A model generated the notes under the pieces. That model worked only from the letters and a program-made list of their open reading frames with translations. It searched no databases and was not told the DNA's origin. From Candidatus Saccharibacteria bacterium (GTDB lineage Bacteria; Patescibacteriota; Saccharimonadia; Saccharimonadales; Saccharimonadaceae), in NCBI GenBank assembly GCA_016432585.1, contig CP066696.1:638113-702112 (forward strand): a DNA stretch of 64,000 nt, in the 5' to 3' direction. A program made the position numbers and the translations under genes. The number at the start of each line of letters is the position of its first letter. The first letter of the stretch is position 1. Shown piece after piece: positions 30,280-54,338 of this stretch.

Positions 30280-31089
30280 ATGAGTGAGCGTATTTCATCA
30301 TGGAAAAATTTTGAGCATGACGACAATAAAATAGTAAGAGAAGCCGATAAGGTTGGGGATCAGGCACTTGATATTGTCGACAGAAGGTACGGATGCGGCT
30401 ACCCGTCGTGGCGACCAGGCTCTCATGAACTGTCGTACCACAACGGCCACCACGCTAGGGCAGTAGGCGACGCAGCGCTAAAAGTATGTACACGCATGGG
30501 ACTATCCAGGCCAGAGCTTGCCGTCGCCAAGGCCGCAGGGTATTCCCACGACCTGGTGCAGCTAAAAGGGCGCGGCCGAGACGAGAACGAAAGCGCCGAG
30601 TGGTTTGAGGGTCAGCTCGAACGCGCGCGGGTATTCCCGGAGCCTCTCCGACATATTGGCGGCCTTGCAATCAAGGGAACGGAGCCTATTTTTTCTGGAA
30701 AGCGAATAGTCGGACAGATGGCAACCCGGCTTGATTACCCAGATAAAGACGCACGCCTCCTTGGCCTTGGCGTCGCTTGTGGGGACTTTGGCGAGCTTTA
30801 TACACCGGAAGGTCCTTTGTTGTCGCATCAATTATTTAGAGAAATCAAAGGAATGCCAAGAGAGCAGAATATTCCGTTTGATGAAATTACCGATTTTCAA
30901 CGTGGACAAGTACAGTTACTCGAGACGTACAAATATCCTCACCCTACAGGTGAAAGCACGCTCGCAACACATCGCCGCCAGGTGACAACATTTGCTAAAA
31001 CGATTCTCCGCCAACTTGAAAGTGGCACAATTGAATCGTGGCCAGAGTTAATCGAGCGCGACATGTCTTTCATTCGTCAGCTTAGATAG
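30280..31089 (+). CDS. HD-domain phosphohydrolase-like protein
   Basis: 269 residues. Metal ligands in SYHNGHHARAV (first His pair), then GYSHDLVQ (the H-D pair), and an additional acidic site in GVACGDFGEL, following the order of HD/PDEase domains. AAAAGGAGA lies 8 nt before the ATG and TACACT at about 30219-30224 supports a leadered transcript. Substrate unknown; nucleotide or cyclic-nucleotide hydrolysis is possible. Its last 13 nt overlap the convergent ackA gene. Confidence 0.8.
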   Translation: MSERISSWKNFEHDDNKIVREADKVGDQALDIVDRRYGCGYPSWRPGSHELSYHNGHHARAVGDAALKVCTRMGLSRPELAVAKAAGYSHDLVQLKGRGRDENESAEWFEGQLERARVFPEPLRHIGGLAIKGTEPIFSGKRIVGQMATRLDYPDKDARLLGLGVACGDFGELYTPEGPLLSHQLFREIKGMPREQNIPFDEITDFQRGQVQLLETYKYPHPTGESTLATHRRQVTTFAKTILRQLESGTIESWPELIERDMSFIRQLR

Positions 31090-32258
31090 TCAAGACGACG
31101 AGCCATTTCGTCAGCCTCGTTTGCGGTAACCACCCAAATAGGCGAGCACCCTGCGTGATTGATATCTGTCACCACCTTACTTGCCGTGCAGTTTTTGTTA
31201 GCTGTCTCATCAAGGACAAAACTAAGATAGTGAAGCTTTTCTATAACGCGTTCACGAATTGGCGCAGAGCGTTCACCAACAGTTCCGGTAAATACGATTG
31301 CATCAGCCCCATCAAGCACGCCCGCCATTTGGCCAATTGTTTTTTGAACACTGTGAACATATGTCGATAATGCCAGTTGCGCACGAGTATCGCCCGCAGC
31401 CTCACGCTCTAACAGCTCGCGAATATCCGACGAGCCGCCAAGACCTAAAAGACCGCTCTCGGTATTGAGATGTTTCTCGAGCCCCCCATCGTTTAAGCCA
31501 CACACATCCCGCAGGACGCGTGTTGCCGTAGGGTCGATCGAGCCACTTCGTGTACTCATGATAATCCCTTCAAGCGGCGAGTAGCCCATAGAAGTATCCA
31601 TACTTTCGCCTTTATAAACGGCCGTAACACTGGCGCCACTGCCCAGGTGACAAACGATAAGTTTCTCGGGCAGTTTTCCGGCTTTCGTTAACTGTCGCAC
31701 AGCAGACGCCACCGAAAGACCATGGTAGCCAAATCGTTTAATATCGAACCGGTCGGCTATTTCTAGCGAGATACCATAATTCCAGGCATAATCGGGCTTC
31801 GTGATATGATACGCGCTATCCGAAACACCGACAATAGTAGCGGCGTCAAACTGCCGGCGAAGCGTTTCGATTTCTTCGAGTGTGGCTGCGATATGAAGGG
31901 GAGCTCGCGCCTTTGCGGCGGCAAGTTCAGCAATAAAGCCGTCATCAACAATACGATCGGCCAAAAAATACGCACCTGGCGCAACCACGCGCACCCCAAC
32001 CTTTTCAACGACATCATCGCTGGTCATTACCTTGCGCTTTTGCAAGATAGCAAGCACTAGCGAGGCACATTGATCAAAATGTCGTATGTCCACATCTTCA
32101 CTATAAGAATCTGCACCGCGTATTAGTGTGCAGATTATTTTTCCACGAGACCACTCAAAATGAAGTGTCGCCCGCAAGGCCGCGCCCTCATAAAGCGCGT
32201 ACTTGCGACTGGCACTCCCAGGGTTCGCTATTAAGCTGAACGAGCCGGCCACACCCAT
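31077..32258 (-). CDS. ackA: Acetate kinase
   Basis: Makes ATP and acetate from acetyl phosphate. 393 residues. The first loop reads LIANPGSASRKYALYEG (normally NAGSSSLKF). Catalytic pieces persist: CHLGSGASVTAV, MSTRSGSIDPTATR with the active Arg, VFTGTVGERS and the C-terminal Glu in TANEADEMARR. It overlaps the end of xfp by 28 nt, so both are one operon. With phosphoketolase it forms the acetyl-phosphate to ATP branch. The divergence is greater than in typical AckA but no key residue is lost. Confidence 0.9.
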   Translation of the reverse strand: MGVAGSFSLIANPGSASRKYALYEGAALRATLHFEWSRGKIICTLIRGADSYSEDVDIRHFDQCASLVLAILQKRKVMTSDDVVEKVGVRVVAPGAYFLADRIVDDGFIAELAAAKARAPLHIAATLEEIETLRRQFDAATIVGVSDSAYHITKPDYAWNYGISLEIADRFDIKRFGYHGLSVASAVRQLTKAGKLPEKLIVCHLGSGASVTAVYKGESMDTSMGYSPLEGIIMSTRSGSIDPTATRVLRDVCGLNDGGLEKHLNTESGLLGLGGSSDIRELLEREAAGDTRAQLALSTYVHSVQKTIGQMAGVLDGADAIVFTGTVGERSAPIRERVIEKLHYLSFVLDETANKNCTASKVVTDINHAGCSPIWVVTANEADEMARRLDYLS

Positions 32259-34582
32259 GCATCAATCTCTGGTATATCAATACCATGCACCTTAATATAT
32301 TCCGTATTGTCGTCAAGTTTCTTTTGGTAGGTGTCGATAACGCGCCTGGCCTCCTCCTCAGAGATTCGCCCGGTAACAGCAAGCTTTTCAAACGCCGCCA
32401 TAACCAAGTGATACCTACTGGTGCGGTTACGGACGTGCATGTCAAATGGTGTCGTCGTGCTACCGTTCTCGATATAACCACGGATATCAAATCGCCCGGG
32501 GTGGTGGGTGTAGTTGAACAGTATCGATTTCATTGTCTCTGGGTAACCGTGGAAGTTCAAGATTACCGGCTTGTCCGAAGTAAAGCTGCGCTCAAAGCCT
32601 TCTTGTGGCACACAAAGGCCGCCCCGGCCCAGTCCACAACTCGTGAGCGAGCTAATATTCACACAGCGCACCCTAATATCCGGATTTTCTTGGTTAATGA
32701 GGTCGATTGCCGCCATAACTTCCTTCATAGGATAGTCACCAGCACCCGCCAAAACGATATCCGGGTTCTCGTCGCTGGCAAAATCCCAAACCATAAGCCC
32801 TGCTTCTAGTTGTTTTTCAGCAAGTGCGGGCGTCAGCCAACGTGGTTCTTGAGTTTTTCCAGCAATCAGTACATTGATTTTTTGCACACTCTCAAGCATA
32901 TGCTTCAAAACGACAAGGGTCGTGTTGCCATCGGCAGGAAAGTACACATCGACAAAATCACCCTGGCGACGCAGCGCGTCATCGATAAATCCAGGGTTTT
33001 GGTGACTCAACCCGTTGTGGTCTTGCCGCCAGCCAGAACTCGTAAGGATATAGTTGAGCGACGGAACTTCTCCTCGCCATTCGACGTTGCGGGCGTGGTT
33101 AAGAAACTTCGCATACTGATCCATCATGCTCACGATCACCTGAATAAACGCTTCGTAACTTGCAAAGATACCATGGCGTCCGGTAAGAACATACCCCTGA
33201 ATCAATCCCTGAAGGTTATGTTCGCTCAACATTTCCATAACCCGGCCATCGCGGGAAAGATCTTTGTCCCAATCCATAATCGGCCACTGCCATGCACGGG
33301 AAGTCTCGCTAAACACCGCATCGAGCTTATTCGAATACGTTTCGTCTGGCGACATAAGACGAAAGTTTTTATTGTGCGCGTTTAGTTTGAAAACTTCGGT
33401 GAGATACTCGCCGGCACGACGCATACTACTGCTACCAATAGTGCCTGGAATTTCAGCATCCTCGGCGTATTTTGCGGCATCTGGCAAAATAAGAGGCTTG
33501 TAAACAGGATCGCCACCAAGTGCGTGAGGCGTCATGCCTATACGGTCTTCGAGGCGGTCGGGTAGAATATCTTTTACAAAATCACCAAACCCGGTCTCAC
33601 GGCTAAATAACTCGCTAATATTGTATGAGTGCAGCCATTCGTTTAGTAGTTTTAGTTGGTTTTCGTCGCTTTTCGCCTCGGTAAGAACCACCTGGTGCGA
33701 AAGGCAGTTACCCTCGATCTTGTCACCGTTTAGTTCTTTAACGCCAGTCCAGCCCTTCAGCGTGCGCATGATAATCATTGGCATGTGCGGGGTTGTGTCG
33801 GGGTCGCTTTCACGAATCTCTTTTATCAGACCGTGCGCCCACTCTAGCGCGTCACTCATGAGTTGATGGTGATTATCGGAGGTCGTAACATCCACGATTC
33901 GCGGACTATACCCGTATCCAATAAATAACGACGTAAGTTCGGCATCGCTCATGCGACCAAACACCGTAGGGGCCGAGATCTTGTATCCGTTCAGGTGAAG
34001 AATAGGCAAAACTGCGCCATCTTTACGCGGGTTGATAAGTTTATTTAAGTGCCATGATCCCGCGGTCGGCCCAGTCTCAGCCTCGCCGTCACCTACCAAG
34101 CATGCAACCAAAAGATCCGGGTTATCAAGCACCGCTCCGTAGCTTGTCGAAAGGGAATAGCCCAACTCACCACCCTCTAAAATAACGCCAGGCGTGCCGG
34201 GGTTGGAATGGCTCGGAAAACCATATGGCCAGCTAAACTGCTGACACATGTATTCGATACCTTCGAGAGTTTGCGGTACTTCTGGATAAAAATTACTCAG
34301 CGTACCCTCAAGAAAAAGATTCGCTTGCAGGGCAGGAAAGGCGTGCCCTGGGCCAAGTACGAACATCATATCTTGCTGATGTTTTTTTGCCAGACGGCTA
34401 AGGTGCGCATAGGCAAAGTTAACCCCCGGTCCGCTACCCCAGTGTCCTAGCAGGCGAGGCTTTACGTCGTCAAACGTAAGATCCCGCTCCATAAGTAAGT
34501 TGTCTTGTAAAAAAATCTGCGCCGCCGTGAGGTAGTTTGCCACACGTAAATATTTATCGATAGATGTAAAATTTTCGTTCAT
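32231..34582 (-). CDS. xfp: Xylulose-5-phosphate/fructose-6-phosphate phosphoketolase
   Basis: Cleaves xylulose-5-P or fructose-6-P to acetyl phosphate plus a triose or tetrose phosphate. 783 residues from the ATG at 34582 (MNENFTSIDKYL), preferred over a frame reaching 34645. Family landmarks: LLGHWGSGPGVNFAYAHLSRL, GPGHAFPALQANLFLEG, HSNPGTPGVILEGGELGYSLS, the ThDP motif VGDGEAETGPTAGSWHLNK, and SSGWRQDHNGLSHQNPGF. TATAAT (34597-34602) lies 14 nt upstream. An upstream CRP-like site suggests carbon- or cAMP-type control. Confidence 0.96.
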   Translation of the reverse strand: MNENFTSIDKYLRVANYLTAAQIFLQDNLLMERDLTFDDVKPRLLGHWGSGPGVNFAYAHLSRLAKKHQQDMMFVLGPGHAFPALQANLFLEGTLSNFYPEVPQTLEGIEYMCQQFSWPYGFPSHSNPGTPGVILEGGELGYSLSTSYGAVLDNPDLLVACLVGDGEAETGPTAGSWHLNKLINPRKDGAVLPILHLNGYKISAPTVFGRMSDAELTSLFIGYGYSPRIVDVTTSDNHHQLMSDALEWAHGLIKEIRESDPDTTPHMPMIIMRTLKGWTGVKELNGDKIEGNCLSHQVVLTEAKSDENQLKLLNEWLHSYNISELFSRETGFGDFVKDILPDRLEDRIGMTPHALGGDPVYKPLILPDAAKYAEDAEIPGTIGSSSMRRAGEYLTEVFKLNAHNKNFRLMSPDETYSNKLDAVFSETSRAWQWPIMDWDKDLSRDGRVMEMLSEHNLQGLIQGYVLTGRHGIFASYEAFIQVIVSMMDQYAKFLNHARNVEWRGEVPSLNYILTSSGWRQDHNGLSHQNPGFIDDALRRQGDFVDVYFPADGNTTLVVLKHMLESVQKINVLIAGKTQEPRWLTPALAEKQLEAGLMVWDFASDENPDIVLAGAGDYPMKEVMAAIDLINQENPDIRVRCVNISSLTSCGLGRGGLCVPQEGFERSFTSDKPVILNFHGYPETMKSILFNYTHHPGRFDIRGYIENGSTTTPFDMHVRNRTSRYHLVMAAFEKLAVTGRISEEEARRVIDTYQKKLDDNTEYIKVHGIDIPEIDAWVWPARSA

Positions 34583-34707
34583 AATGCTTATGTTTATTAT
34601 ACCCCTTATATTTCCCGAGAGGAAATTGATTAAAAATAATGACATTTTGTAGCCACATGTAACAAAGCACGCTATTCGTCGTGTTCACAGATACGTCATC
34701 CGCGTAA

Positions 34708-34752
34708 AGTATACACTAGCATAAGGGGTATCGCACTGTGACTGTTATCACA
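34708..34752 (-). promoter_or_regulatory. CRP-like site and distal promoter of the xfp-ackA operon
   Basis: TGTGA-CTGTTA-TCACA at 34737-34752 is a perfect TGTGA-N6-TCACA palindrome. On the minus strand TATACT (34713-34708) follows, so the centre of the palindrome falls at about -42 from the predicted start. That is the class II activator position. A second -10 (TATAAT, 34597-34602) is nearer the gene. Confidence 0.65.
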
Positions 34753-34760
34753 CGCGAGCT

Positions 34761-35162
34761 CTATGCAGGACTATTGTTACGCTGCCAGTCTTTAATTGCC
34801 GGCGAAAAGTCTAGCTGATAGTCAGGGATATCAAGTGTTAAGCCGTGTTCCACTGCAGCCTCGTATTGCTCGGGCTGACTACGATCAATTCTAAACACCT
34901 CGTTTGGAAATATAATGTAGTGGACGCTGCTATTTTTAAAATCAGCATACCAATAGCCAACCTGAAGCGCCCGACTAAGACGCTGCGCCAAGTCTTCCGC
35001 CTCTTGCTCATCGGCATCAAACCGGTGCAATGTCCACTGTTGCAGCCACGGCGTGTTATGCGCTGGCGTTACTTTTTCTACCTTAGTTGAAGTTATATTT
35101 AAACCCGATAGGGCATTACTATCCCTAAGACTTTCCTCGATAATAACGCCCTGGTATTTCAT
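34761..35162 (-). CDS. Hypothetical protein
   Basis: 133 residues, soluble and acidic. Alternating strand pattern in the centre: VGYWYADFKNSSVHYIIFPNEVFRIDRSQPEQYEAAVEHGLTL. It resembles the general layout of small conserved Patescibacteria proteins that I cannot assign. The ATG sits directly behind a CCTCAGTATACT-like -10 (minus strand AGTATACTGAGGGTATTATG), again leaving hardly any leader. Single gene, downstream of which lies the xfp regulatory region. Confidence 0.65.
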   Translation of the reverse strand: MKYQGVIIEESLRDSNALSGLNITSTKVEKVTPAHNTPWLQQWTLHRFDADEQEAEDLAQRLSRALQVGYWYADFKNSSVHYIIFPNEVFRIDRSQPEQYEAAVEHGLTLDIPDYQLDFSPAIKDWQRNNSPA

Positions 35163-53976: not shown

Positions 53977-53996
53977 TACTCGTGCAGGTACAGACC

Positions 53997-54039
53997 CTGG
54001 CGTGGAGTCGGGGATTTCGCCCACAGAACTCCACGCCAG
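53997..54039 (-). terminator. GC-rich hairpin after the 54.1 kb orphan
   Basis: CTGGCGTGGAGT / ACTCCACGCCAG, 12-bp perfect stem, without U-tract, followed on the minus strand by the canonical terminator at 53949. Same two-hairpin layout as at 36.5 and 44.65 kb. Confidence 0.75.
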
Positions 54040-54057
54040 ATGTCAAACCGTCCTTCT

Positions 54058-54270
54058 TCACGAATCGCGAGTCTGACGTCGCCGGCCGCGCCCGCGGCGC
54101 GGGTAGGAGGTGACGGCAGAGTCGTCGCCGCTCTCTCGCGTCACCGTCGTGAACTGCTCGTCCGAGGCTCGTGACGACACACCCGGAATGGGGCTGTCCT
54201 GCTCCCTGGCAGGATCGTGGACAGTGCCACGAACGTGCTCGTAGGGATCGGGAAACACTCGTTCGGCCAT
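54058..54270 (-). CDS. GC-rich small orphan, low-complexity
   Basis: 70 residues, strongly charged and probably disordered: MAERVFPDPYEHVRGTVHDP at the start, ending SYPRRGRGRRRQTRDS. The Arg/Gly-rich tail could bind nucleic acid. The Shine-Dalgarno is weak (GGACTGG about 7 nt upstream). The reading frame is short, but GC-rich codons, a promoter (GTGACA-17-TATAGT) with a CRP-like site and a two-hairpin 3' end match the other orphan cassettes. Another overlapping minus-strand frame (to 53948) looks like a shadow. Confidence 0.5.
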   Translation of the reverse strand: MAERVFPDPYEHVRGTVHDPAREQDSPIPGVSSRASDEQFTTVTRESGDDSAVTSYPRRGRGRRRQTRDS

Positions 54271-54308
54271 GAGACCAGTCCAATCATCCGAAGGGGATTG
54301 ACGCGTTT

Positions 54309-54338
54309 ACTATACCAAGAAGTGTGATCTATGTCACA
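54309..54338 (-). promoter_or_regulatory. Promoter of the 54.1 kb orphan with CRP/GlxR-type site
   Basis: TGTGATCTATGTCACA at 54323-54338 is a perfect palindromic TGTGA-N6-TCACA and also fits the actinobacterial GlxR form TGTGA-NN-TA-NN-TCACA. On the minus strand the -35 (GTGACA, 54337-54332) lies within it and TATAGT (54314-54309) follows 17 nt on. The site covers the -35 and part of the spacer. Confidence 0.65.

Follow-up and report, generated by a model that had tools for sequence, protein, structure and literature searches.

The 16-base palindrome TGTGACTGTTATCACA, found at 34737-34752 in the intergenic gap upstream of the xfp-ackA operon, is very probably a site for a regulator of the CRP/FNR family. 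It is likely the operator of the single recognisable CRP/FNR protein of this genome, used for class II activation at a distal promoter (P1) that would add to basal transcription from a gene-proximal one (P2). The window, by which we mean the whole 64-kb stretch of DNA analysed, belongs to a genome of the Saccharibacteria lineage comprising 952,504 bases (about 0.95 Mb) in one contig, estimated as 96.9% complete. An activator operator of this family is new in the lineage and ordinary in kind; in the literature searched, no paper was found that describes an operator, or a regulon, of a CRP/FNR protein from any Saccharibacteria. If correct, this assignment supplies an operator, an arrangement of promoters and a set of genes on which to test how reduced, mostly host-dependent bacteria switch energy metabolism, and ties ATP production to nucleotide supply. 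The relevant features, in window coordinates, are as follows.

31077-32258, minus strand: ackA, acetate kinase (Acetate_kinase match), overlapping the 3' end of xfp in an operon
32231-34582, minus strand: xfp, xylulose-5-P/fructose-6-P phosphoketolase (XFP_N, XFP and XFP_C matches), start taken from relatives
34596-34601, minus strand: TATAAT, -10 box of the predicted proximal promoter P2, 13 bases before the xfp ATG
34708-34713, minus strand: TATACT, -10 box of the distal promoter P1, predicted from geometry and relatives, 31.5 bp from the palindrome centre
34737-34752, no strand: predicted CRP/FNR-family operator, a perfect TGTGA-N6-TCACA, assigned from site counts and from enrichment and geometry in relatives
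34761-35162, minus strand (as xfp): uncharacterised gene with no Pfam match, separated by 9 bp from the palindrome downstream of it
54323-54338, no strand: second perfect palindrome, its nearest -10-like box too close for activator spacing

The reading frames of xfp and ackA overlap by 28 bases, and comparison with relatives places the xfp start codon at 34582, not at the in-frame ATG (34645) that opens the longest reading frame. The first base of the P1 hexamer lies 31.5 bp from the centre of the palindrome, and no TTGACA-like -35 box is recognisable upstream of it. With a transcription start 7 nt past the hexamer, the centre falls near -43.5; a preliminary description of this DNA had placed it at about -42. 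The TATACT of the promoter it had proposed to read into xfp is present at 34713-34708, accompanied by a second, gene-proximal TATAAT at 34601-34596. A regulator dimer bound at 34737-34752 would activate P1 in the class II manner, adding xfp-ackA transcription to the basal output of P2.

This spacing has a counterpart in the lineage as a whole, which is the strongest line of evidence obtained here. Good -10 hexamers were counted by distance at 203 non-redundant oriented sites clear of long ORFs, each palindrome being read in both directions; counts at 28.5, 29.5, 30.5 and 31.5 bp from the centre were 12, 30, 13 and 8, whereas the other distances averaged 4.7 (sd 2.3). A -10 box fell within 28.5-31.5 bp at 60 of the 203 sites; the remaining windows of 4 bp had 18 on average, with an sd of 6 and a maximum of 30. 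The peak lies where class II activation would place it: in E. coli CRP class II promoters (centre at -41.5), as here, a TGTGA-N6-TCACA palindrome stands in place of the -35 box and the -10 box lies about 29.5 bp from its centre. Since both directions were counted, and about 9% of oriented intergenic sites show a -10 box in a 4-bp window by chance, the presence of one at any single site is suggestive, not proof. At 31.5 bp, the xfp site falls inside the class II range, on the margin of the peak and two bases from the 29.5 mode, and the activator position claimed for it earlier agrees with the typical spacing on those terms.

Perfect sites upstream of ackA or xfp recur in seven further genomes (G036, G064, G106, G128, G176, G226 and G232), representing five genera besides that of the window, which bears out the proposed link of the site to these genes. 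The -10 box is spaced at 31.5 bp in G036, G226 and G232, at 28.5 in G128 and at 29.5 in G176; the class II box of G064 and G106 is directed at a divergent pyrD. The ackA genes of G226 and G232 do not adjoin xfp, and the hexamer before them is again TATACT; that of G036 is TATTAT. By a generous estimate (85 sites, two neighbours each, three target genes per 900) about 0.6 such recurrences are expected by chance, and at least five has P = 3e-4. A search at this position found no site in the genomes with the most closely related xfp, namely G027, G015 and two that carry the regulator (G160 and G137), and roughly two thirds of the genomes having both xfp and crp are without one there. Absence from close xfp orthologues, and from most regulator-bearing xfp/ackA operons, argues that the link has been gained or lost repeatedly.

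These absences lend some weight to a competing account, rather unlikely in our estimation, in which the operator is genuine, yet xfp is driven by P2 alone and the site is neutral or represses a minor transcript. A gene-proximal -10 box comparable to P2 does recur in xfp-first relatives that lack the site, as the closest relatives do, and the spacing at xfp is 2 bp off the mode. Against this, TATACT falls inside the class II window, the same hexamer at the same 31.5-bp spacing precedes ackA in G226 and G232, and TATTAT occupies that distance in G036. Activation of xfp-ackA from P1 is on this evidence likely, though it is probably partial, given that xfp retains its gene-proximal TATAAT. The suggestion that the regulator commands the main fermentative pathway is supported as to an activator site and overstated as to control of the whole pathway, since P2 is kept and the closest xfp relatives are without the site. 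The proximity of P2 to the xfp ATG suggests leaderless or very short-leader transcripts. In many Saccharibacteria xfp genes (L050-L055) a -10 box lies about 5-15 bases from the ATG. The xfp matches of L207 (G160), L050 (G027), L060 (G013) and L212 (G128) each contain one in-frame stop, which may reflect assembly error, decay or the edge of the match.

A search of the whole genome with HTH_Crp_2 identified one recognisable CRP/FNR protein, of 219 aa, encoded outside the window (G000:C1:371965-372621) and matching both PF00027 (cyclic-nucleotide-binding-like) and PF13545 (Crp-type helix-turn-helix) above their curated cut-offs. Its recognition helix, SRETVSRTIR, retains R180, E181 and R185 of E. 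coli CRP, and these three residues are invariant in 12 aligned orthologues. The named orthologues are almost all from Candidatus Saccharibacteria. The protein scores 33.7 bits against the NCBIfam CRP equivalog NF008732, below the cut-off of 266, and the solved structures nearest to it in sequence are NtcA and then CRP. A second HTH_Crp_2 match (L007), having no cNMP domain in view and a TrmB-type likeness, was not counted as a CRP, and a third fell below the cut-off. Sites stand directly upstream of crp in many genomes; no site was found within 300 bp upstream of crp in this one, where autoregulation is accordingly not supported though it is common in relatives. The regulator gene (L006:1483-2139) is convergent to that of an adenosylcobalamin-dependent ribonucleotide reductase (L166:2198-5088), the pair spanning about 369,047-372,621 of the genome (G000), and a frame downstream of the reductase resembles corrinoid adenosyltransferase. 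This reductase has a CRP-type site with one mismatch and TATAAT at 29.5 bp.

The preliminary description had further proposed cAMP- or nucleotide-responsive control. The cAMP part of this is not supported by comparison of the ligand pocket: set against the cAMP-binding residues E72, R82, S83, T127 and S128 of E. coli CRP, the pocket of the regulator reads AFFPLSQAINDTPNRYFYEA, and both E72 and R82 are absent in it and in its relatives. Of the cyclase classes searched for (III and IV), no class III cyclase (PF00211) was found in the genome, and two CYTH-domain proteins score 36-39 bits against the cyaB (class IV cyclase) cut-off of 58. A classical cAMP-CRP catabolite response governing fermentation is unlikely, despite the CRP-like operator and recognition helix and the weak resemblance of the two CYTH proteins to class IV cyclases, and cAMP is not supported as the effector by these sequences. 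The regulator translation contains zero cysteines, which excludes an FNR-type [4Fe-4S] cluster. We infer that redox or energy status is a likelier signal than cAMP, as suggested by a target set of oxygen-independent-class ribonucleotide reductases, arcA, acetate kinase and flavodoxin. A published genome study proposed oxygen as a signal that Saccharibacteria may sense through FNR-family regulators, and remarked on phosphoketolase and acetate kinase genes as neighbours (PMC6031116).

Each of the better-known systems resembles this one in part. The E. coli CRP likeness extends to the retained R180/E181/R185; the Saccharibacteria regulator differs in lacking E72 and R82, in being a distant homologue and in having a regulon that is small and made up of genes for energy and nucleotide metabolism. 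FNR-, Dnr- and ArcR-type regulators of anaerobic metabolism have regulons that include arcA, ribonucleotide reductases and acetate kinase, as is seen here, and share the CRP/FNR fold. In contrast to FNR, the present protein is free of cysteine and its operator follows the CRP pattern instead of TTGAT-N4-ATCAA. NtcA, responsive to 2-oxoglutarate, recognises GTA-N8-TAC, whereas the operator here is TGTGA-N6-TCACA; the likeness to NtcA rests on overall sequence, not on effector residues.

The palindrome before xfp and TGTGATCTATGTCACA at 54323-54338 are the only perfect matches to TGTGA-N6-TCACA in the window, and both lie exactly where first reported. The earlier chance expectation of 0.06 per 64 kb assumed equal base frequencies; a first-order Markov model gives 0.040, with P = 8e-4 for at least two. 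Pattern searches of the whole genome found 5 perfect sites against 0.59 expected under the same type of model (P = 4e-4) and 1 match to the reversed-pattern control; none of the 5 is inside an ORF of at least 100 aa. Allowing up to one mismatch gave 29 sites against 23 for the reversed control, an excess so small that the analysis was restricted to perfect sites or those well supported by orthologous targets. Two of the five perfect sites have a -10 box in the 28.5-31.5 bp window, that of xfp and one (L002) upstream of an antiporter gene, with TATACT at 29.5 bp. Both sites in the window had been described as adjoining promoters; the xfp site has the predicted P1 beside it, and the nearest -10-like box to the 54323 site, TATAGT on the minus strand, is 16.5 bp away and is not in activator geometry. 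That site and another (L005), both too near their -10 boxes to activate, may repress or be neutral. The 54323 palindrome adjoins a G+C-rich stretch (53990-54285), probably a small minus-strand gene, with an A+T-rich region on its opposite side. The segment 51155-53947 encodes a large protein with matches to the families of type IV secretion coupling proteins and HerA-like ATPases.

In relatives, the abundance of the motif follows the presence of the regulator. A set of 61 genomes was divided by whether a homologue was detected, and sites outnumbered the reversed controls only in those with one: 60 perfect sites and 34 controls, compared with 11 sites and 33 controls in the others (Fisher 2e-5 for the contrast); 51 of 71 sites lay outside ORFs of at least 100 aa, against 6 of 30 control sites (the best listed one per genome), p = 2e-6, these p-values for count and placement being optimistic as the genomes are related. 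Within 5 kb on either side of 56 crp-orthologue loci, some from genomes overlapping the 61-genome set, 20 sites and 0 controls were found. The original proposal was staked on a CRP/FNR homologue somewhere in the genome and on enrichment of the motif in intergenic DNA: a homologue with a CRP-type recognition helix exists, and the enrichment is borne out by 51/71 versus 6/30 and by the non-genic position of all five own sites.

A chance match is very unlikely to account for the xfp palindrome. About 0.6 perfect matches are indeed expected per genome, and one-mismatch sites are barely in excess; set against this are the five own sites, all non-genic, the lineage-wide enrichment, the co-occurrence with the regulator, the geometry and the recurrence at ackA/xfp. 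A DNA hairpin, or a terminator of the 34761-35162 gene, is extremely unlikely: the palindrome is self-complementary and lies 9 bp past the stop codon of that gene, yet its stem would be just 5 bp, no T run follows it on the minus strand, and both the regulator co-occurrence and the -10 spacing would be left unexplained.

The operator reading of the palindrome extends to a wider set of genes. The same protein family would run a small lineage regulon comprising nrdJ, nrdD, pyrD, arcA, flavodoxin and ackA/xfp, and often its own gene; the recurrent targets besides ackA/xfp are nrdJ, nrdD and further ribonucleotide reductases, pyrD, arcA, flavodoxin and crp. The nrdJ of this genome has a one-mismatch site with TATAAT exactly 29.5 bp away. 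We tentatively raise the possibility, to which we lean somewhat less than evenly, of a lineage-specific regulator that has lost its cAMP- and Fe-S-sensing residues and couples nrdJ, nrdD and pyrD to ATP production by xfp, ackA and arcA; if so, a single signal would govern the making of DNA together with the supply of energy in a bacterium that depends on a host.

Several observations were made at individual loci. The gene pyrD (dihydroorotate dehydrogenase) repeatedly adjoins a site (L197, L212, L186, L189, L190 and L267), and in some genomes one palindrome is common to pyrD and a divergent ackA or xfp. The genome studied here also encodes a class I ribonucleotide reductase beta subunit (L347:2030-3082), near which is an ATP-cone protein resembling the alpha subunit (L176); a one-mismatch site precedes the latter by 186 bp. 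In G036 a perfect CRP-type site is followed closely by an AdoCbl-II (B12) riboswitch (L084:1379-1452), an arrangement in which B12 and the regulator may act on one transcript.
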